This document shows positions 21,823 to 30,135 of a stretch of 33,914 nt of DNA, piece by piece. Origin of the DNA: Chloroflexota bacterium (lineage in GTDB: Bacteria > Chloroflexota > Dormibacteria > CF-121); the NCBI GenBank assembly GCA_005881215.1, contig VBDZ01000007.1, positions 1 to 33,914 on the forward strand. Reading direction: 5' to 3'. The position numbers and the translations under genes are program-made. Within the stretch, counting starts at the first letter, position 1, and each line of letters begins with the position of its first letter. Below the pieces are notes generated by a model that was not told the DNA's origin, made no database searches, and saw only the letters and a program-made list of their open reading frames with translations.

Positions 21823-22317
21823 TCAGTACCCGGGTTTCGCCGACGCCGCCGGCGCCGCCGCCAGGTCGGGGGTAGCGGCGAACCATTTGCCGAAGAGGCC
21901 CTGGCCATAGGCATCACCGGAATCCCCATCCTTTGAATAGGTGTAGAGCGGATGGCCGTTGTAGAGGACCTGGCTGCCGTTCGATCCATTGAGCAGGCTC
22001 AGCGTTCCCGGTAAGGCCGGAGTGCTGGTCGGGGCCCCCGATGGGGAGAGCAGGGGCGGCCAGGTGCTGGCGCATCCACCGGTGCAGGCGATCGAGGTCG
22101 CCGTGTCGGGTGTGAAGTAGTAGAGCGTGAGTCCCCTGGCATTCTTCAGCACGGTTTCAGTTTTTCCGGCGACCTTCATGGACGCGGTATGGATCAGCGC
22201 CGAGCTACTCGCCGACGTCGCCGCCCCGGTACCGGCCGAGGTCGTGCCGCCGCAGGCAGCCAGCGAAACGGCCGCTAACCCCAGGATGATGGTGCCCGGA
22301 ATTCGAAGTGTCAGCAT
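21823..22317 (-). CDS. COG4315-type secreted-repeat lipoprotein
   Basis: 164 aa. ATG 22317 is preceded by a strong Shine-Dalgarno (GAGGAGG). The signal peptide has a lipobox (LAAC), so the protein is a membrane-anchored lipoprotein. Two copies of the short 'secreted repeat of unknown function' (Lipoprotein_15) are seen: VLKNARGLTLYYFTPDTATSIACTGGCASTWPPLL and VLYNGHPLYTYSKDGDSGDAYGQGLFGKWFAATPDL. The first keeps the CxxxCxxxWPP pattern. Function is not known for the family. It is convergent with the M23 gene and divergent from the aromatic operon. Confidence 0.88.
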   Translation of the reverse strand: MLTLRIPGTIILGLAAVSLAACGGTTSAGTGAATSASSSALIHTASMKVAGKTETVLKNARGLTLYYFTPDTATSIACTGGCASTWPPLLSPSGAPTSTPALPGTLSLLNGSNGSQVLYNGHPLYTYSKDGDSGDAYGQGLFGKWFAATPDLAAAPAASAKPGY

Positions 22318-22381
22318 GAAGGCCTCCTCGGCGCCAAGCCGGACGCCACAGGTGAATACCCGGGCTGGTTACGTTCGGCTC

Positions 22382-22410
22382 TTGCCAAGCGGACGGGCGC
22401 GTTGTACGAT
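22382..22410 (+). promoter_or_regulatory. Promoter of the aromatic amino-acid operon
   Basis: TTGCCA (22382-22387), 17-nt spacer, TACGAT (22405-22410). Transcription would begin near 22417-22421, at or next to the ATG of the leader peptide. It is the best promoter-like sequence in the 260-bp gap before aroH. Confidence 0.6.
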
Positions 22411-22420
22411 GCCGAGCACG

Positions 22421-22495
22421 ATGATGCGGCGCATTCGATTTGGGTACTTTTACGCCTATCTCGGGCCGGCTCGGGTCCGGCTCGGGATGAGCTAG
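22421..22495 (+). CDS. Putative Phe/Tyr-rich attenuation leader peptide of the aro operon
   Basis: A 24-codon ORF, MMRRIRFGYFYAYLGPARVRLGMS, starting about 10 nt after the -10, so probably leaderless. Residues 7-13 (FGYFYAY) hold two Phe and three Tyr, and both Phe codons are TTT, unlike the TTC bias of neighbouring genes. An upstream in-frame ATG (22409) would add four residues but overlaps the -10. Aromatic-rich leader peptides control pheA- and aroF-type operons by ribosome stalling in other bacteria. Its position 83 nt before a chorismate mutase-DAHP synthase-prephenate dehydrogenase operon fits that role. It has not been demonstrated here. Confidence 0.6.
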   Translation: MMRRIRFGYFYAYLGPARVRLGMS

Positions 22496-22568
22496 CGCCG
22501 CTCCTTCCCAGCATCACCCGACGACCGGCCCTCCTCCAGCAGAGCGATAACGTGGCGCACCCAGGAGG
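22463..22568 (+). promoter_or_regulatory. Possible attenuator with competing RNA pairings and SD sequestration
   Basis: CCTCCT (22530-22535) can pair with AGGAGG (22563-22568), the Shine-Dalgarno of aroH. CCGGCCC (22525-22531) overlaps it and can instead pair with GGGCCGG (22463-22469), just after the leader Tyr codons. CGGGATG (22483-22489) can pair with CAT-CA-CCCG (22512-22520). A 10-nt direct repeat, CCGGCTCGGG, is at 22466-22475 and 22477-22486. No U-tract is seen, so translational control is more likely than termination. Which structure is ON is unresolved. Confidence 0.4.
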
Positions 22569-22577
22569 TAGAGAGGA

Positions 22578-22946
22578 ATGCCGGTTCGAGGGATTCGCGG
22601 GGCAACGACCACACAAGAAGACAGCGAGGTGGCGATCATCGAGGCAACCAGCGAGTTGCTCGCAGAAATCGCGCGCGAGAACGCGCTCGATCCGGATGAC
22701 ATCGCGGCCGCCTGGTTCACGACCACACCCGATCTGACGGCGGAGTTCCCCGCCGCGGCCGCTCGTCAGCTCGGTTGGGGCGATGTGCCCCTGATGTGCG
22801 CGCACGAGATGGCGGTGCCGGCCTCGAATCCGCGCAGCCTTGCCCGTTGTATCCGGGTCCTCCTGCTGGTCAACACCACCGTGCCTTCGTCGGCGATCCA
22901 CTTCGTTTATCTGCGGGGCGCCGAAAAGCTCCGGGTGACGGCATGA
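22578..22946 (+). CDS. aroH: Chorismate mutase, AroH class (monofunctional)
   Basis: 122 aa, the usual length of the trimeric AroH-type chorismate mutase, which converts chorismate to prephenate. Family blocks are clear: VRGIRGATTTQEDSEVAI, the catalytic Arg near the N-terminus, FTTTPDLTAEFPAAAARQLGW, PLMCAHEMAVPASNPRCIR-like region and VYLRGAEKLR. The Shine-Dalgarno AGGAGG is followed by an 8-9 nt spacer to ATG 22578. It is the first structural gene of the operon, downstream of the putative leader peptide, and its 3' end overlaps aroF as ATGA. Placing the mutase with DAHP synthase and TyrA lets the cell coordinate entry into and branching of the pathway. Confidence 0.95.
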   Translation: MPVRGIRGATTTQEDSEVAIIEATSELLAEIARENALDPDDIAAAWFTTTPDLTAEFPAAAARQLGWGDVPLMCAHEMAVPASNPRSLARCIRVLLLVNTTVPSSAIHFVYLRGAEKLRVTA

Positions 22947-23965
22947 TCATCGTGATGCGCCATGACGCGACCTCGGCGCAGGTGGCGGCGGTGGTCGCTC
23001 AGGTCCAGGCGCACGGGATGCGCACCCACCTGAGCGACGGCGACGAGCGGACCGTGATCGGCGTGATCGGAACCAATCCCTTCGCGCTGCGGGATCTCTT
23101 TATCGAGGCCCCCGGCGTGGCTGAGGTGGTTCCCATCACCAAGCCCTTCAAGCTGTCGAACCGCGAGTTCCGGTCGCGCGACACCCGGATCAAGGTCAAC
23201 TCCCACGAAGTCGGCGGCGATCGGATCTGGATCGTGGCCGGGCCGTGTTCGGTCGACAACGAAGAGCTGTACCTCGAAAGCTGCCGGCTGGTGCAGGCGG
23301 CCGGGGCCCACGCCCTGCGTGGCGGTGTCTTCAAGCCACGCACCTCGCCCTACAGCTTCCAGGGGCTGCGCGCGGGCGGGGTCGAGATCCTTCGCGAAGC
23401 GCGCCGCCAGACCGGTCTCCCGCTCGTCTGCGAGGTGCTGGCGCCGGCCGACATCGACACGCTGGCGGAGCTCGCCGACGTGTTACAGATCGGGGCCCGC
23501 AACATGCAGAACTTCGCCCTGCTGTCCGAGGTAGGCCGGCTACGCAAACCGGTCCTCCTGAAACGCGGCATGTCGGCGACGATCGAAGAGTGGCTACTGT
23601 CGGCCGAGTACATCCTGAGCCAGGGAAACTACCAGGTCATCCTTTGCGAGCGGGGCATCCGCACCTTCGAGACCTACACCCGCAACACCCTGGACCTCAA
23701 CGCCATCCCGCTGATCAAGGAGCTGAGCCACCTCCCCATCATCGTCGACCCCAGCCACGGCACCGGCCGGCGTTCACTGGTCACGGCGATGGCGCTGGCC
23801 GGCATCGCCGCCGGCGCCCACGGCCTGATGGTCGAGGTGCACGCCCAACCGGAGGTCGCGCTTTCCGATGGCGCGCAGTCGCTCACCCCCCAGGCATTCC
23901 GGCAGTTGGTCGAGCAGGTCGACGCCGTTGCCGCCGCGCTCCAGCGGCCGGTCGGAGTCTCGTGA
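22943..23965 (+). CDS. aroF: 3-deoxy-7-phosphoheptulonate (DAHP) synthase, type I-beta with N-terminal regulatory domain
   Basis: 340 aa from ATG 22943, overlapping aroH. The N-terminal ~70 residues (MIIVMRHDATSAQVAAVVAQV...GTNPFALRDLF) form the ferredoxin-like regulatory domain known from the Thermotoga-type enzyme. The barrel shows VAGPCSVDNEELYL, RGGVFKPRTSPYSFQG, QIGARNMQNFALL, LLKRGMSATIEEWL, LCERGIRTFE and IVDPSHGTGRR, with the expected metal and substrate residues. It catalyses the first step of the shikimate pathway, PEP + erythrose-4-P. The regulatory domain implies feedback inhibition by an aromatic end product (family knowledge). Residues from the track start at 22775 read through aroH and are excluded. 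Confidence 0.96.
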   Translation: MIIVMRHDATSAQVAAVVAQVQAHGMRTHLSDGDERTVIGVIGTNPFALRDLFIEAPGVAEVVPITKPFKLSNREFRSRDTRIKVNSHEVGGDRIWIVAGPCSVDNEELYLESCRLVQAAGAHALRGGVFKPRTSPYSFQGLRAGGVEILREARRQTGLPLVCEVLAPADIDTLAELADVLQIGARNMQNFALLSEVGRLRKPVLLKRGMSATIEEWLLSAEYILSQGNYQVILCERGIRTFETYTRNTLDLNAIPLIKELSHLPIIVDPSHGTGRRSLVTAMALAGIAAGAHGLMVEVHAQPEVALSDGAQSLTPQAFRQLVEQVDAVAAALQRPVGVS

Positions 23966-24777
23966 TGCGAGTCGGGATCATCGGTCTGGGTTTGATCGGT
24001 GGCTCCCTGGCGCTTGCCCTGCGCCAGCTCGGACGCTCGATCGAAGTCATCGGCGTGGCCAAGCGGGCGGAAAGTGCGGCCGAAGCGACCCGGCGCGGTG
24101 CGGTCGATCGAGCCTCAACGGATCTGGCGGACCTCTCGGACTGCGACATCGTGGTCATCGCCACCCCGATCGAGGAGATTGCCGTTGTGATGGAACGGCT
24201 CGGTCCCCTCGTCGCGACCGAAACGCTCATTACCGATGTCGCCAGTGTCAAGCGGCCGGTTCTCGACTGGGCACAGCGCTTACCGAACCCATCGCGTTTT
24301 CTCGGTGGTCACCCGGTGGCTGGCAAGACGCGAACTGGGCTGGCGGCGAGCGATGCCGCCATCTTTGCGCACGAGCCGTGGATTTTCACGCCGGTCGAGG
24401 GTCAGGATGTCCGGCCGTTCGATACCTGGTTCGAGATCGTGCGCGCGATCGGCGGCACCGTGAGCTTCATGGGCGCCGACGCGCACGACCGGCAGATGGC
24501 CTTTCTCAGCCACCTGGCGTTCGTGGTGAGCGCGGCCTTCTCCGAAACGATCCAGAAAAACGCGGATCCGACGGCCGGCGGGCCCGGCTACCGCAGCCTG
24601 GTTCGTCTCGCCGGTGGGGAGCCTTCGATGTACGAGGCAATCGCGCGGGAAAACCGCGACGCCCTGGTCGACGCGATCGACCGCTTCGACGCCGTCCTGC
24701 ACCGCTATCGCCAGCGAATCGGCGACGGCGCTCGGGTGCGGGAACTGTTCGGCGGAGCCGTGCATGCCGGGCGCTGA
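23965..24777 (+). CDS. tyrA: Prephenate (cyclohexadienyl) dehydrogenase
   Basis: 270 aa from ATG 23965, sharing one base with the aroF stop (TGATG). NAD(P)-binding motif GIIGLGLIGGSLALAL is at the N-terminus, then VVIATPIEEI, LITDVASVK and the catalytic-site signature FLGGHPVAGKTRTG. SHLAFVVSAAF and the C-terminal helical domain complete the TyrA fold. It oxidatively decarboxylates prephenate to 4-hydroxyphenylpyruvate for tyrosine synthesis. There is no ACT domain, so feedback control must come from elsewhere, such as the AroF domain or transcription. Cofactor specificity is not certain. Confidence 0.93.
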   Translation: MRVGIIGLGLIGGSLALALRQLGRSIEVIGVAKRAESAAEATRRGAVDRASTDLADLSDCDIVVIATPIEEIAVVMERLGPLVATETLITDVASVKRPVLDWAQRLPNPSRFLGGHPVAGKTRTGLAASDAAIFAHEPWIFTPVEGQDVRPFDTWFEIVRAIGGTVSFMGADAHDRQMAFLSHLAFVVSAAFSETIQKNADPTAGGPGYRSLVRLAGGEPSMYEAIARENRDALVDAIDRFDAVLHRYRQRIGDGARVRELFGGAVHAGR

Positions 24778-24787
24778 GGTGGACCAG

Positions 24788-26191
24788 ATGGAGCTGGTGC
24801 AGCCGGCATCGCGCATTGCCGGGCAGCTCAGGGTCCCCGGTGACAAATCCATCGCGCACCGGGCGCTGATCCTGGGAGCACTCGCGGACGGCGACTCGGT
24901 GATCAGCGGCCTGCCCGAGGGTGAGGACGTGCGCGCGACGGTTGCCTGCCTGCGAAGCCTCGGCGTCACGATTGCTCCGTCGCCAATCTCTCCCTCCCCC
25001 TTGTGGGGAGGGCAGACAAAAGGTCCCTCCCCCTTGTGGGGAGGGTCGGGGAGGGGGTACAAGATCTCGCCTGCACCCTCTGCTGGAGGAGCCGGTTGGG
25101 GATTCGCAACCCCGCACGGTCCGCTCGACTGCGCCAACTCGGGGACAACGATGCGTCTGCTGGCGGGCGTGCTGGCCGGGAGCCGCGTGTCCGCCACGCT
25201 GGACGGCGATGCATCACTCCGGCGGCGGCCGATGGCTCGCGTCATCGAGCCCCTGCGCCGGATGGGCGCCCGGATCGACGCCAACGACGATCGCGCGCCG
25301 CTGATCGTGACCGGCACTCCACTACAGGGACGACATCACGTCCTCCCGGTGGCGAGTGCCCAGGTCAAGAGCGCCCTCCTCCTTGCGGGCCTGGCGGCCA
25401 GCGGACCCACCACGATCGTCGAACCCATGCCAACGCGCGATCATAGTGAGCGGTTGCTCACCGCCATGGGCGCGGAGCTCCGCGTCGAGGCGGGCACGGT
25501 CGAGTTGCGCCCGTCGCACCGGCCATTGCGTTCGATCGAACTGACGGTGCCCGGCGATTTCTCGTCGGCGTCCTACTGGTTGGCGGCCGCGGCGATGCGG
25601 CCCGGCTGGTCGGTAACGATTCAGGGTCTCGGACTGAATCCGACGCGCACCGCCTTCCTGCGCCTGCTCGAGTCCATGGGTGCCGAGGTCGTCGTCGAGC
25701 TCCGGTCGGGCGAGATCGAACCACTCGGCTCGGTCACCGTCGTGGGTGATCGACTCCGGGCGATCGACCTCGGAGCTGCTGACGTCGCGGCCGCGATCGA
25801 CGAGATTCCGGCCCTGGTCGCCGTCGCCACCCAGGCGAAAGGAGTGACCCGGATCGAGGGCGCGGCCGAACTCCGAGTCAAAGAGAGCGATCGGATCGCC
25901 GGCATGGCAGAGGGATTGCGTCGGATGGGCGCGCGGGTCGACGAGCGACCAGATGGGATCAGCGTCCACGGACCCACCGCCCTGCGGGGCACCACGGTCG
26001 GCTCGAATGGCGATCATCGGATCGCCATGGCGCTGGCGATTGCCGGGCTGGTGGCGTCAGGTCCGACGACCATCGCGGATGCCGACTGCGTCGCCGTCTC
26101 CTACCCGGGATTCTTCAGTGAGCTCCGGAGCATCTCGACCGAGCAGTTTCCCTCCCCCGCTGGCGGGGGAGGGTCAGGGTGGGGGCGGTGA
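24788..26191 (+). CDS. aroA: 5-enolpyruvylshikimate-3-phosphate synthase carrying palindromic-repeat insertions
   Basis: 467 aa from ATG 24788, with GAGGTGG as Shine-Dalgarno; ATG 24764 is an alternative overlapping tyrA. EPSP synthase motifs are intact: VPGDKSIAHRALILGALADG, LDCANSGTTMRLLAG, ASAQVKSALLLAGL, VPGDFSSASYWLAAAA, RVKESDRIAGMAEGLRRMGA and NGDHRIAMALAIAGLVA. Between LRSLGVTI and GPLDCANSGTT, where orthologues have about 20-25 residues, there are about 45: SPSPLWGGQTKGPSPLWGGSGRG...PAPSAGGAGWG. These are encoded by two clear repeat copies plus a degenerate one. The C-terminus also ends in repeat-encoded sequence (FPSPAGGGGSGWGR). Catalysis is probably kept, since all motifs survive. 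Confidence 0.94.
   Translation: MELVQPASRIAGQLRVPGDKSIAHRALILGALADGDSVISGLPEGEDVRATVACLRSLGVTIAPSPISPSPLWGGQTKGPSPLWGGSGRGYKISPAPSAGGAGWGFATPHGPLDCANSGTTMRLLAGVLAGSRVSATLDGDASLRRRPMARVIEPLRRMGARIDANDDRAPLIVTGTPLQGRHHVLPVASAQVKSALLLAGLAASGPTTIVEPMPTRDHSERLLTAMGAELRVEAGTVELRPSHRPLRSIELTVPGDFSSASYWLAAAAMRPGWSVTIQGLGLNPTRTAFLRLLESMGAEVVVELRSGEIEPLGSVTVVGDRLRAIDLGAADVAAAIDEIPALVAVATQAKGVTRIEGAAELRVKESDRIAGMAEGLRRMGARVDERPDGISVHGPTALRGTTVGSNGDHRIAMALAIAGLVASGPTTIADADCVAVSYPGFFSELRSISTEQFPSPAGGGGSGWGR
24992..25057. repeat. Palindromic repeat copies B1 and B2, in frame inside aroA
   Basis: B1: CCCTCCCC (24992-24999) / GGGGAGGG (25005-25012). B2: CCCTCCCCC (25025-25033), TTGT, GGGGAGGG (25038-25045), then TCGGGGAGGGGG. 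The two share the block TCCCTCCCCCTTGTGGGG and are read as SPSPLWGGQ and PSPLWGGSGRG. A decayed third copy may follow at about 25075-25105 (read PAPSAGGAGWG). Confidence 0.88.
26150..26185. repeat. Palindromic repeat copy C, at the aroA/aroE junction
   Basis: CCCTCCCCCGC (26150-26160) / GCGGGGGAGGG (26163-26173), 11-bp arms, then TCAGGGTGGGGG. It encodes the last residues of AroA (FPSPAGGGGSGWG), and its G-rich tail is the only Shine-Dalgarno-like sequence before aroE. Confidence 0.88.
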
Positions 26192-26976
26192 GCTCATCCG
26201 TCCTCCTCTTGGGCGACGCCGTTTCGCGGAGCCTCTCGCCCGCGATGCAGAACGCCGCCTTCGAGGCGCTGCAGATCGATTGCCACTACCTGGTTCGCGA
26301 GGTGGGACGCGCCGGCCTGGCGGCCGCCATCGCGGATGTCCGCGGCGACCATCAGATCCTCGGCGCCAACGTCACCATCCCGCACAAGGAATCGGTCATT
26401 CCCCTGCTCGACGAGCTCGACCCGCTGGCTCGTCGGGTCGGCGCGGTCAACACCGTCAGCCGGCAGGGCGGAAGGCTGAAGGGTTGGAATACTGACGTCG
26501 AGGGTTTCCGGTGCGCACTCGCCGAAATATCGTCCTCCCCCCTCGTGGGGGAGGGTCAGGGTGGGGGGTATGGTCGCGTTGCAATCATCGGCGCCGGTGG
26601 AGCCGCGCGGGCGGTTGCCGCGGCGCTGCCGCCCGCTGCTGAAATCTGGGTGATCGCGCGGAACATTGACCAGGCGCGACGCCTGTGCGACGACCTGAAT
26701 CTCGAGCGCGGCGGGCCGGTCGGCATCGAGGCGATGCAGACAACCGTCGACCGCGCCGAGCTGGTCGTCAACGCCACTCCCGCGGACCTGCCGCCGGCGT
26801 CCTGGCTGCGACCCGACCAACTGCGCTTCGATCTGCGGAGTCGTCGATCAGCCGAGGGCCGGGCCATGCTGCTGCATCAGGGCGCCGCATCGTTCGAGAT
26901 CTGGACCGGGCGGCCGGCGCCGCTCGCCGTCATGCGCGCCGCGCTGGAGCGTGCCGCTCAGGCGGTGCCGGCATGA
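26188..26976 (+). CDS. aroE: Shikimate dehydrogenase with repeat insertion and shortened C-terminal motif
   Basis: 262 aa from GTG 26188, overlapping the aroA stop (GTGA); GTG 26179 is the track start. It reduces 3-dehydroshikimate with NADPH. The substrate domain has SRSLSPAMQNAAF, LGANVTIPHKESV with the catalytic Lys, GAVNTV and GWNTDVEGF. The Rossmann domain has VAIIGAGGAARAVAAAL and VVNATPADL. The interdomain linker contains SSSPLVGEGQGGGYG, encoded by repeat copy D. Near the end the usual DxxYxPxxTxLL...A block is missing: RFDLRSRRSAEGRAMLLHQGAASFEIWTG skips about 16 residues including the conserved Tyr. The enzyme may be active with altered binding, or may be decaying. Confidence 0.9.
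   Translation: MSSSVLLLGDAVSRSLSPAMQNAAFEALQIDCHYLVREVGRAGLAAAIADVRGDHQILGANVTIPHKESVIPLLDELDPLARRVGAVNTVSRQGGRLKGWNTDVEGFRCALAEISSSPLVGEGQGGGYGRVAIIGAGGAARAVAAALPPAAEIWVIARNIDQARRLCDDLNLERGGPVGIEAMQTTVDRAELVVNATPADLPPASWLRPDQLRFDLRSRRSAEGRAMLLHQGAASFEIWTGRPAPLAVMRAALERAAQAVPA
26534..26568. repeat. Palindromic repeat copy D, in frame inside aroE
   Basis: CCTCCCCC (26534-26541) / GGGGGAGG (26547-26554), then GTCAGGGTGGGGGG. It is read as SSPLVGEGQGGG between the substrate and NADP domains of AroE. Confidence 0.88.
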
Positions 26977-28118
26977 CGTTGCGGTTCCTCACCGCGGGCG
27001 AATCTCACGGCGAACGGCTGACGGTGATTCTCGACGGCGTTCCGGCCGGCCTGACTCTTCGCGAGGAGGACCTGGCGGCCGATTTGCGACGCCGGCAGGG
27101 TGGGCACGGCCGGGGCGGAAGGATGGCAATCGAACAGGATGCCGCCCACATCGTGGCCGGCGTTCGAGGCGGCCTCACGCTCGGCTCGCCGATCACGCTG
27201 GAAATCGCGAACCGCGACTGGGAGAACTGGCGGCAGGTGATGGCGGTCGACGCCGCGGAGGTCAAGCGGAAACCGATCACCCGGGTGCGCCCCGGCCACG
27301 CGGACCTGGCCGGCATGCTGAAGTACGGAGCCGATGACGCCCGCGACGTCCTGGAGCGAGCCAGTGCCCGCGAGACCGCGGCTCGGGTGGCGGCGGGCGG
27401 CGTGGCCAAGCTGCTGCTCGGCGAATTCGGCGCCCACGTCCGCAGCTACACGCGGTCGATCGGAGGCATAGATGCTGCCGTGCCGGCTTCGATCGACTGG
27501 GCGGCGGTCGAATCGTCACCGGTCCGATCTCCAGACCCGGAAGCCGGAGCGGCGATGGTGTCTGCGATCGACGCCGCCCGTGAATCTGGCGACACGCTTG
27601 GCGGGGTCTTCACCGTGATCGCCGACGGCGTCCCGCCGGGACTGGGCAGCTACCGGCAGTGGGACACCCGCCTCGACGGCCTGCTCGCCCAGGCGGTGGT
27701 CAGCATCCCGGCGTGCAAAGCGGTCGCCATCGGCGATGGGGAAGAGGCCGCGCGCCGGCCCGGCTCACAGGCGCATGACGTCCCGGTTTACGACGACGGT
27801 CGGTTGCGCCACGAGACCAACCGCGCCGGCGGCCTGACGGGCGGCATCACCAACGGCGAACCGGTGGTGGTGCATGGCTTCATGAAGCCGATCTCGACCC
27901 TGCTCAAGCCGCTGGCGACGGTTGACCTGAAGACGAAAGAGCCCGCCCGCGCCCACTACGAGCGGAGCGACATCTGTGTGGTGCCGGCAGCCGGTGTCGT
28001 GGGCGAAGCCATGGTCGCGCTCGTCCTGGCCGGCGCGCTTCTCGAAAAGTTCGGCGGCGACTCTGTCAACGAGCTCCGGCGAAATGTCGAAGCCTATCTG
28101 CAGCAGGTGCGCCGGTGA
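26973..28118 (+). CDS. aroC: Chorismate synthase
   Basis: 381 aa from ATG 26973, overlapping aroE as ATGA. It is an FMN-dependent enzyme that makes chorismate from EPSP, the last shikimate step. Family blocks: TAGESHGERLTVILDGVPAGL, RRQGGHGRGGRMAIEQD, RVRPGHADLAGMLKYG, DVLERASARETAARVAAGG, SCHAxP-like central region and the C-terminal GGITNGEPVVVHGFMKPIST and SDICVVPAAGVVGEAMVALVLA. Length and motif order are normal. No repeat insertion is seen here, in contrast to aroA and aroE. It overlaps aroKB as GTGA. Confidence 0.96.
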   Translation: MTLRFLTAGESHGERLTVILDGVPAGLTLREEDLAADLRRRQGGHGRGGRMAIEQDAAHIVAGVRGGLTLGSPITLEIANRDWENWRQVMAVDAAEVKRKPITRVRPGHADLAGMLKYGADDARDVLERASARETAARVAAGGVAKLLLGEFGAHVRSYTRSIGGIDAAVPASIDWAAVESSPVRSPDPEAGAAMVSAIDAARESGDTLGGVFTVIADGVPPGLGSYRQWDTRLDGLLAQAVVSIPACKAVAIGDGEEAARRPGSQAHDVPVYDDGRLRHETNRAGGLTGGITNGEPVVVHGFMKPISTLLKPLATVDLKTKEPARAHYERSDICVVPAAGVVGEAMVALVLAGALLEKFGGDSVNELRRNVEAYLQQVRR

Positions 28119-29707
28119 ATAACGTGGTGCTCGTCGGCTTCATGGGGAGTGGTAAGTCCACCGTCGGGCCGATCCTCGCCAGGCTCCGAAACCGGCCATT
28201 TGTCGATCTCGATGATGAAATTGCGCAGGAGGCCCACCGTCCAATCCCGCGAATCTTCGCCGAAGAAGGTGAAGAAGGGTTTCGGCGGCGCGAGTCGCGG
28301 GCGCTGGAGCGCGCGTTGGGCCGCGAAGATTGCGTGGTCGCCGTTGGAGGCGGCGCTCCGAAGAACGACGACAACTGGGAACGCATCCGGAGTGGCAACT
28401 GGGTTGTGGCGCTCACCGCCGAACCGGCAGAACTCGCCCGCCGACTCAGTGGGTCGACTGAACGGCCCCTGCTTCAGCCGGACCCACCGTCCGCGATTGC
28501 TTCGCTGCTACGGGAACGTCTGCATCGCTATCTCGAGGCGGATCTGGTGGTCAGCACCGATGACGTTGCCCCAGAGCTGATTGCCCGGCGGCTGAACGAC
28601 CGGCTGGCCTCTCGTGGAATCGAGCGGGTGCGTATCGAGGTACCAGGCTCGCCGCACGAAGCGACCGTCGGCACGCGACTGCGTCCGCTCATCGCGTCGA
28701 CCCTGGACCGGCTGGCCGTCTCTGGAACCGTTGTCATCGTCAGCGACCCGATCGTGGTCGAGGCACACGGCGCCACCCTGCTTGACGAACTGTCGTCTGC
28801 CGGCATCAACGCCCGGCTGCACCGGGTGCCGGTGGGGGAACCGGCGAAATCACTGGACGTGCTCGCGGGGATCTACGAAGCGCTGGCTGCGGCCGGCGTC
28901 GATCGGGCCGGTGCGCTGATCGCCTTCGGCGGCGGCGCGGTCGGCGACGTCGCCGGATTCGCCGCCGCGACCTGGATGCGCGGCATCCGGTACATCCAGG
29001 TGCCCACCACGCTACTGGCGATGGTCGACAGCAGCATCGGCGGCAAGACCGCGATCAACCTGCCGGCCGGTAAGAATCTGGCCGGGGCGGTCCATCAGCC
29101 CTCGGCGATCTTCTGCGATCTCGACTACCTCGCCACCCTTCCGGATGACGAGTACCGCGCGGCACTCGCCGAGGTCTTCAAGGCCGGCGTGATCGCCGAT
29201 CGCGCTTTCTTCGACTGGCTAACGACCAATCTGGCGGCGTTGCTGGGTCGGGAACCAACCGTTGTTCTCCAGGCGGTGGCGCGCGCCATTCGGATCAAGG
29301 CCGCCGTCGTGGCGAGCGATCCATACGAAACCGGTCCCCGCGCGATCCTCAACTACGGGCACACCGTCGCCCATGCGCTCGAACGGGCGGCCGGGTACGG
29401 TCAGTTGCGACACGGTGAGGCGGTGGCGTGGGGCATGACGGTGGCGGCGCGCCTCAGCGTGCTGGCCATGAACTGCCCAGCGTCGGCCGCCGAAGCGCAG
29501 GACGAGTTGCTCCGCGCCAGCGGTCTGCTCGCGACGCGTCCCACCATCCGGAGCGCCGACCTGGTCGAGGCCATGCGCCACGACAAGAAGTCACGGGATG
29601 GGAGTCCACGCTGGGTCCTGCTGCGCGAGATCGGCAGCGTGGACTATGGCCGTAGTGTCGCCCCGTCGACCGTCGAGGCCGCCCTGGCGGAGGTGATGGG
29701 CGGGTGA
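28115..29707 (+). CDS. aroKB: Fused shikimate kinase / 3-dehydroquinate synthase
   Basis: 530 aa from GTG 28115. The shikimate kinase domain occupies about 1-167: P-loop VGFMGSGKST, shikimate-binding FVDLDDEI and FRRRESRAL, VAVGGGAP, and RPLL in the lid. The dehydroquinate synthase domain, about 170-530, has AFGGGAVGDVAGFAAATWMRG, PTTLLAMVDSSIGGKTAIN, AEVFKAGVIAD, metal-ligand block NYGHTVAHALE, RHGEAVAWGM and HDKKSRDGSPRWVLL. One polypeptide thus performs steps 2 and 5 of the pathway. Such AroKB fusions are known in some bacteria (for example Thermotoga). All catalytic signatures are present. It overlaps aroC and aroQ by 4 nt each. Confidence 0.96.
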   Translation: MNNVVLVGFMGSGKSTVGPILARLRNRPFVDLDDEIAQEAHRPIPRIFAEEGEEGFRRRESRALERALGREDCVVAVGGGAPKNDDNWERIRSGNWVVALTAEPAELARRLSGSTERPLLQPDPPSAIASLLRERLHRYLEADLVVSTDDVAPELIARRLNDRLASRGIERVRIEVPGSPHEATVGTRLRPLIASTLDRLAVSGTVVIVSDPIVVEAHGATLLDELSSAGINARLHRVPVGEPAKSLDVLAGIYEALAAAGVDRAGALIAFGGGAVGDVAGFAAATWMRGIRYIQVPTTLLAMVDSSIGGKTAINLPAGKNLAGAVHQPSAIFCDLDYLATLPDDEYRAALAEVFKAGVIADRAFFDWLTTNLAALLGREPTVVLQAVARAIRIKAAVVASDPYETGPRAILNYGHTVAHALERAAGYGQLRHGEAVAWGMTVAARLSVLAMNCPASAAEAQDELLRASGLLATRPTIRSADLVEAMRHDKKSRDGSPRWVLLREIGSVDYGRSVAPSTVEAALAEVMGG

Positions 29708-30135
29708 GGGTCCTGGTGCTGAACGGTCCGAACCTCGGCTCGCTCGGTCGGCGCGAACCCGAGGTCTATGGCACCCGCACCCTCGCCGACCTGGAAGGGC
29801 TCCTGACGGCTCGCGCCGCGGAGCTCGGCATCCAGCTTCACTGCCTGCAGTCGAACCACGAGGGTCAGCTGATCGATTGGATCGAGCGAGAGGCGGTGGG
29901 AACCGACGCCATCATCATCAACCCGGGGGCGCTGTCCCACACCAGCCTGGCGCTGGCGGACGCCTTGCGCGGGTCCGCAAAGCCGGTGATCGAGGTGCAC
30001 ATTTCCAACGTGTTCGCTCGCGAGCCGGAGCGGCATCGGATGGTGACGGCCGCCGCGGCGAAGGGTGTGATTTCAGGTCTCGGCTTTGACGGATACCTGC
30101 TGGCTCTGAATTTCGTCGCGACCCTGCGCGCGTGA
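29704..30135 (+). CDS. aroQ: Type II 3-dehydroquinate dehydratase
   Basis: 143 aa from GTG 29704, overlapping aroKB as GTGA. It dehydrates 3-dehydroquinate to 3-dehydroshikimate; type II enzymes are dodecamers. The signature RVLVLNGPNLGSLGRREPEVYG includes the catalytic loop with Arg and Tyr. QSNHEGQLIDWI, INPGALSHTSLALADAL, VEVHISN-like (IEVHISNVFAREPERH) with the catalytic His, and GVISGLGFDGYLLAL follow. Length is standard. This completes the pathway set in the operon. Confidence 0.96.
   Translation: MRVLVLNGPNLGSLGRREPEVYGTRTLADLEGLLTARAAELGIQLHCLQSNHEGQLIDWIEREAVGTDAIIINPGALSHTSLALADALRGSAKPVIEVHISNVFAREPERHRMVTAAAAKGVISGLGFDGYLLALNFVATLRA

Follow-up and report, generated by a model that had tools for sequence, protein, structure and literature searches.

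Comparative analysis of the region upstream of the aro operon in the window (the whole stretch of 33,914 nucleotides analysed here) reveals a short Phe/Tyr-rich leader ORF embedded in a conserved RNA, which is likely a ribosome-mediated attenuator responding to Phe and Tyr and acting on translation initiation of the operon. We infer four parts of this reading, namely the leaderless start, the response to starvation, the direction of the switch, and a translational rather than Rho-dependent output. More tentatively, and with somewhat less than even confidence, we propose that, in a class of uncultured Chloroflexota, a single transferable, near-leaderless cassette serves three operons with its codons re-tuned, that a pseudoknot assists its sequestration of the Shine-Dalgarno sequence (SD), and that terminator and translational outputs have been swapped at aroH within the phylum.

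The aro promoter is sigma-70-like, with 9 of 12 consensus matches, and the 1-kb region holds two promoter-like sites compared to 0.1 expected (Table 1). Both the TTGCCA-N17-TACGAT promoter followed by an ATG and the five Phe/Tyr residues in seven codons, with TTT used twice, are found in the window as the original prediction had described them. These two TTT codons are unusual, since Phe is mostly encoded by TTC in the genes of the aro operon (22 TTC versus 4 TTT). A search of both strands for ORFs of 10-45 residues with at least five F, Y or W in seven codons returned one in the window, for an expectation of 0.02 per Markov-shuffled window. As expected of an amino acid attenuator, the leader ORF is short and clusters codons for the end products of the downstream pathway. 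The genes follow in the order aroH-aroF-tyrA-aroA-aroE-aroC-aroKB-aroQ; in aroKB, shikimate kinase and 3-dehydroquinate synthase are fused in a single ORF (28115-29707). On the other side, a small divergent Lipoprotein_15 repeat protein (21823-22317, minus strand) starts 65 nt from the aro promoter.

Table 1. Features of the aro leader region and operon, in window positions.
Feature	Position (strand)	Description	Basis
Promoter	22382..22410 (+)	-35 TTGCCA 22382-22387, 17-nt spacer, -10 TACGAT 22405-22410	
Leader ORF	22421..22495 (+)	MMRRIRFGYFYAYLGPARVRLGMS-stop, 24 aa; ATG 10 nt past the -10 box; without SD	
Regulatory codons	22439..22459 (+)	TTT GGG TAC TTT TAC GCC TAT = F-G-Y-F-Y-A-Y	
H1, proposed OFF hairpin	22454..22492 (+)	GCCUAUCUCGGGCCGG 22454-22469 with CCGGCUCGGGAUGAGC 22477-22492	centroid fold, forced-helix energies
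S1:S4/S5 long-range helix, proposed anti-sequestrator (ON)	22464..22530 (+)	S1 GGCCGGCUCGGG (22464-22475) with CCCGA (22517-22521) and CCGGCC (22525-22530)	MFE, covariation
H2 hairpin, leader stop UAG in loop	22484..22509 (+)	arms 22484-22492 and 22500-22509	
GCGCC and GGCGC	22495..22558 (+)	GCGCC 22495-22499 (H2 loop), GGCGC 22554-22558 (just before SD)	near-invariant complementary pair
Anti-SD and aroH SD	22530..22568 (+)	anti-SD CCUCCUCC 22530-22537, can pair with aroH SD AGGAGG 22563-22568	
aroH, type I chorismate mutase, first gene under the proposed control	22578..22946 (+)		PF07736, E 1e-41
DAHP synthase, tyrA, aroA, aroE, aroC, aroKB fusion, type II dehydroquinase (aroQ)	22944..30135 (+)		Pfam matches

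Searching relatives for AroH identified 14 genomes of the same genus, 13 of them with aroH (G001-G005, G007-G014). An intact leader, usually of the form M(T/S)GR(V/I)(R/Q)FA(S/G)FYFYAYLGPARDRLGMG-stop, precedes the gene in 12 of these 13, together with its Phe/Tyr codons and the RNA that surrounds its stop codon; two leaders (G014 and G002) also hold one Trp codon. Across 12 genomes, window included, AroH protein identity averages 85%, and four-fold sites are 95.5% identical in the leader versus 52% in aroH, a comparison that places the conservation of the leader and its regulatory codons beyond neutral expectation. Promoter elements are kept as well, and the spacers and the stretch from anti-SD to SD vary freely. 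The original prediction had looked to the conservation of these codons, and had named loss of the short ORF with preservation of its flanks as the outcome that would speak against it; the reverse is seen, the ORF being kept in 12 of the 13 genomes and the flanks not. The element was not found before aroH in other genera of the family. In the G004 copy (L030/L086), identity is lost inside the element and the aromatic half is gone, by deletion or by an assembly join (chimera); the DNA upstream holds the terminal part of a peptidase M23-type ORF.

A genus-wide DNA search revealed weaker second matches between rplT and pheS, where the sensing codons of the leaders are Phe only (RFIFIGPARGRHELS-stop, RFVFIRPARGRLELS-stop and others; motifs FIF, FVF, FMF and FAF). 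Model R1, a covariance model of 13 aroH and 3 pheS copies, identified four further pheS copies together with copies before a stand-alone DAHP synthase gene (aroF) in two other genera, whose family f1 leaders terminate in AWFTFTGPARGRHGSS-stop and FSFTFTGPARGRHGSS-stop and carry the sensing motif FTF. Counted from the (G/R)PAR codons, positions -2 and -4 are taken by aromatic codons in the aroH, pheS and f1 aroF copies. The search with model R2 added family f3, with the element again before the stand-alone DAHP synthase gene. Inspection of upstream regions revealed five f3 leaders, of which four have a cluster of Trp, Tyr and Phe codons (WRYF or WSYWYSF) and the fifth (G021) has WRYFAF; the f3 sequences include WRYFFGFTGPAGG, WRYFEFAFTGPAGG and VWSYWYSFTEPAG. 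Several f2 leaders were recognised by inspection (HFYFYFEY, RFYFWFEY, HFYFYFYAGPA and RRYFARPAGRLP), and their peptides have little in common beyond the aromatics and a PA(x)RLP stretch. The codons thus track gene function, with Phe and Tyr at aroH, which belongs to the Phe/Tyr branch, Phe at pheS, and Phe or Trp, Tyr and Phe at aroF, whose product catalyses the first step common to all three amino acids.

In phylum-wide searches with models R2 and R3, strong matches were confined to two families of the class, f1 and f3. Weak matches (L095-L100, L103/L168, L104, L169-L173) lack an aromatic leader and were taken as chance, and a second element was not found in G000, an uninformative result since its assembly is without pheS. 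In the pheS leaders of G010 (L090) and G013 (L092), small deletions shift the frame after PAR; both ORFs still stop near the conserved site, with TGA replacing TAG. As these indels alter the C-terminal peptide yet spare the RNA, they indicate constraint at the RNA level.

A TANNNT -10 box ends 8-11 nt upstream of the start codon in all 29 non-pheS leaders examined (aroH and aroF, three families), and 8-10 nt upstream of the ATG in 13/13 aroH copies. The -35 element is recognisable in f1, where the aroF promoters read TTGACA-17-TACGAT, and poor in f2 and f3. Owing to the few nucleotides between the -10 box and the start codon, the non-pheS leader transcripts are probably leaderless or nearly so, which supports an earlier suggestion for the window leader, with the transcription start placed by spacing. 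The pheS leaders differ in this respect, their first ATG lying 1-2 nt after the rplT stop codon.

Comparison of the copies also reveals a conserved RNA fold. Covariation scores are 0.143, 0.159 and 0.196 on 16, 22 and 27 sequences, respectively, and none of 500 shuffles reaches any of them; on the 27 sequences, shuffled alignments give 0.078 and the best slid control 0.086. The element copies are phylogenetically related, so that covariation counts do not represent independent events. The best covarying helix is H2, with AU/CG/UA, AU/GC/GU and GC/AU pair types. The S1:S4/S5 helix links the PAR codons to the CCCG..CCGGC strands adjoining the anti-SD; since helix 1 of S1:S5 is almost invariant, its support comes from the neighboring pairs and H2. 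The compensatory base pairs that the original prediction had asked about are hence found in two helices, H2 and S1:S4/S5, which covary far above the controls. H1, whose 5' arm includes the last Tyr codon of the leader and which competes with both of these helices, was rejected as a covarying helix for lack of compensatory changes, and is retained on energetic grounds as the proposed OFF structure.

Next to one partner strand of these alternative pairings lies CCTCCTCC, which is complementary to the aroH SD; a pyrimidine stretch after CCGGC is present in 13/13 aroH copies and in most other f1 copies. The element thus holds a strand that can pair with the SD of aroH or be captured by an alternative partner, as expected of a translational attenuator. 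The H2 loop AGCGCC is conserved in 21/22 f1 copies across aroH, pheS and aroF, and the invariance of GCGCC and GGCGC, without covariation, makes a pseudoknot or kissing contact between them plausible. The fold energy of the window copy resembles that of shuffled sequences (z -0.11), and single-sequence folding z-scores are uninformative; the case for an RNA element is a comparative one. An Rfam search of the window returned only a tRNA elsewhere, and no T-box or other catalogued cis-regulatory RNA.

To describe the effect of a translating ribosome, its footprint was masked codon by codon along the leader, and the energy cost of SD opening was calculated for each position. In most aroH relatives, this cost is high without a ribosome and drops sharply once the A site occupies the Phe and Tyr codons at -6 to -4: from 9.6 to 2.2 kcal/mol in G003, 10.1 to 2.6 in G009, 9.9 to 2.7 in G011, 9.8 to 4.1 in G001 and 8.5 to 3.1 in G010. 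In the shuffle comparison of six copies, none of 40 shuffles matches the effect in each of G003, G009, G011 and G001, and the effect is not seen in G014 and the window copy. The cost in the latter is about 3 kcal/mol at any ribosome position; G005 and G013 are similarly flat, G014 is weak, and the pheS and aroF copies are mixed. With one or the other helix forced, SD opening costs less in the S1:S5 than in the H1 form in 15/21 copies, with one tie; both aroF copies favor S1:S5, and the window copy does not. The window copy has an extra C between CCGGCC and the anti-SD, owing to which both pairings coexist in its calculation. It may rely on the GCGCC:GGCGC contact, which lies outside the model, or be less tightly controlled. 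Mutually exclusive pairings exist as had been proposed, one partner strand lying next to the strand that could hide the aroH SD, but the ribosome-position switch is absent from the folding calculation for the window copy itself.

The best reading of these models is that H1 is the OFF state, S1:S5 with H2 the ON state, and a ribosome waiting on the Phe/Tyr codons the switch. Transcription would begin a few nucleotides from the leader ATG, and ribosomes would load on an essentially leaderless ORF. With charged Phe-tRNA and Tyr-tRNA available, they would move past the aromatic codons; after their release the leader would form H1, leaving the CCGGCC-CCUCC strand free to mask the aroH SD. When either charged tRNA is scarce, a ribosome stalled on F-Y-F-Y would cover the 5' arm of H1, so that S1 could pair with S4/S5, H2 could form at the leader stop, and the SD would be freed. 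The Phe-only version of the cassette would control pheS, and the version with Phe or with Trp, Tyr and Phe would control DAHP synthase.

The same starvation sensor could act instead through premature transcription termination upon full leader translation, either Rho-dependent or at an unrecognised intrinsic terminator. Transcriptional attenuation of aroH probably does exist in the phylum. In distant Chloroflexota, Phe/Tyr-rich leaders (L009-L012 and L014, about 200-330 nt before aroH; L016, 1310-1500) encode peptides such as SFYFYYYFGN (SFYFYYYFGNSTE) and RYFFAYFYYGF. Downstream of the SFYFYYYFGN leader, terminator prediction identifies a site (CGGGGTTCCC..GGGACTCCGGGCCTTTTTC in L012, also in L014), and in L016 a GGGCGAGG..CCTCGCCC-ATTTTT hairpin, beyond the loop limit of the prediction, is seen by eye. 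Judged from their sequences, these leaders have the layout of classical transcriptional attenuators, and the sensor appears widespread in the phylum while its output differs. A Rho-dependent output is also compatible with the sequence of the element described here. However, no terminator-like site was found at 22000-23000 of the window, and the aroH and aroF copies show none on the plus strand and no T-run above 3, the sole match being on the other strand; the intrinsic terminator between leader and first gene that marks transcription attenuators of the trp/pheA/AroR type is thus lacking. The conserved strand by S5 complements the SD, and conservation continues as far as the SD. We regard termination as an unlikely output. 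The original proposal of starvation attenuation, possibly translational rather than terminator-based, is largely supported: the element lacks a terminator and its codons fit the downstream genes, and the translational output is the part that we infer.

The conservation of GPARxR and the C-terminus in most f1 copies might suggest an arrest peptide of the TnaC or ErmCL kind, through which free Phe, Tyr or a metabolite of the pathway would halt the ribosome, making the peptide sequence and not codon starvation the sensor. This reading was set aside as very improbable, given that the two frame-shifted pheS copies end in other residues and keep the RNA, that the f2 peptides share so little, and that aromatic identity tracks gene function. 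The strongly covarying fold and the near-invariant GCGCC/GGCGC pair could likewise be taken for a small-molecule or protein site (a riboswitch or repressor site) with an incidental ORF. The element has no Rfam match, its aromatic codons show nucleotide-level conservation and differ according to the gene that follows, and f2 and distant Chloroflexota still have aromatic leader ORFs despite a different fold, all of which leave this explanation scarcely credible. Finally, many short ORFs arise in GC-rich DNA, but a chance ORF without regulatory role in a conserved promoter region is refuted by the comparative data, its probability being negligible for an ORF so rarely expected per window and recurring at three genes in several families.

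Leader-peptide attenuation is textbook knowledge in a few groups of bacteria, where it usually acts through terminators, and E. coli pheL-pheA and pheST are controlled by transcription attenuation via terminators. In comparison, the attenuator proposed here uses one recognisable RNA cassette for aroH, pheS and aroF without a terminator, although it resembles the E. coli systems in placing a Phe leader on a biosynthetic gene and on Phe-tRNA synthetase genes (PMC11802643). The nearest described case is AroR of Corynebacterium glutamicum, a Phe-Tyr-Phe leader before aroF that is described as acting by transcription attenuation and responding to Phe and not to Tyr (PMC11802643, citing Neshat 2014; PMC4046766). 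Both systems have an aromatic leader at a DAHP synthase operon, and stalling on AroR under Phe limitation is reported to raise expression (PMC11802643, PMC4046766). Unlike actinobacterial AroR as described there, the present element has no terminator, an SD-complementary strand and a different RNA, and is found at aroH and pheS too.

Other likenesses are partial. The Cys-rich uORFs of mycobacteria are also leaderless short ORFs rich in the amino acid made downstream and proposed as attenuators (PMC4633059); they differ in concerning cysteine and another phylum, and the comparison is one of ORFs, not of RNA. The trpL ORF of Sinorhizobium meliloti starts at the transcript 5' end, as may the leaders here, but it senses Trp through transcription attenuation, and its leader RNA and peptide act also in trans (PMC7298713). 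Ahead of an amino acid gene, the LEU element of Actinobacteria combines leader codons, SD sequestration and a candidate pseudoknot; it differs in that the run of Leu codons is itself the pairing partner of the SD, and mutation of these codons reportedly left regulation unaffected (PMC1262725). The literature searched, with most subscription journals outside its coverage, yielded no Chloroflexota leader-peptide attenuation, nor this element.

The contrast with the aroH leaders of distant Chloroflexota, also Phe/Tyr-rich but followed by a terminator-like hairpin and T-run, suggests how an attenuator may keep its sensor and switch to another output. The cassette yields direct predictions of Phe/Tyr-dependent translation control in uncultured soil bacteria, and its homologous copies, present at three genes and each with the codons that suit the gene, amount to a natural codon-swap experiment. 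At pheS, five loci of the same genus that have no pheS leader (L137, L138, L139, L141 and L144) carry a remnant-like (C/T)TAGCGC right after the rplT stop codon, as though everything but the H2 loop had been deleted from the cassette.
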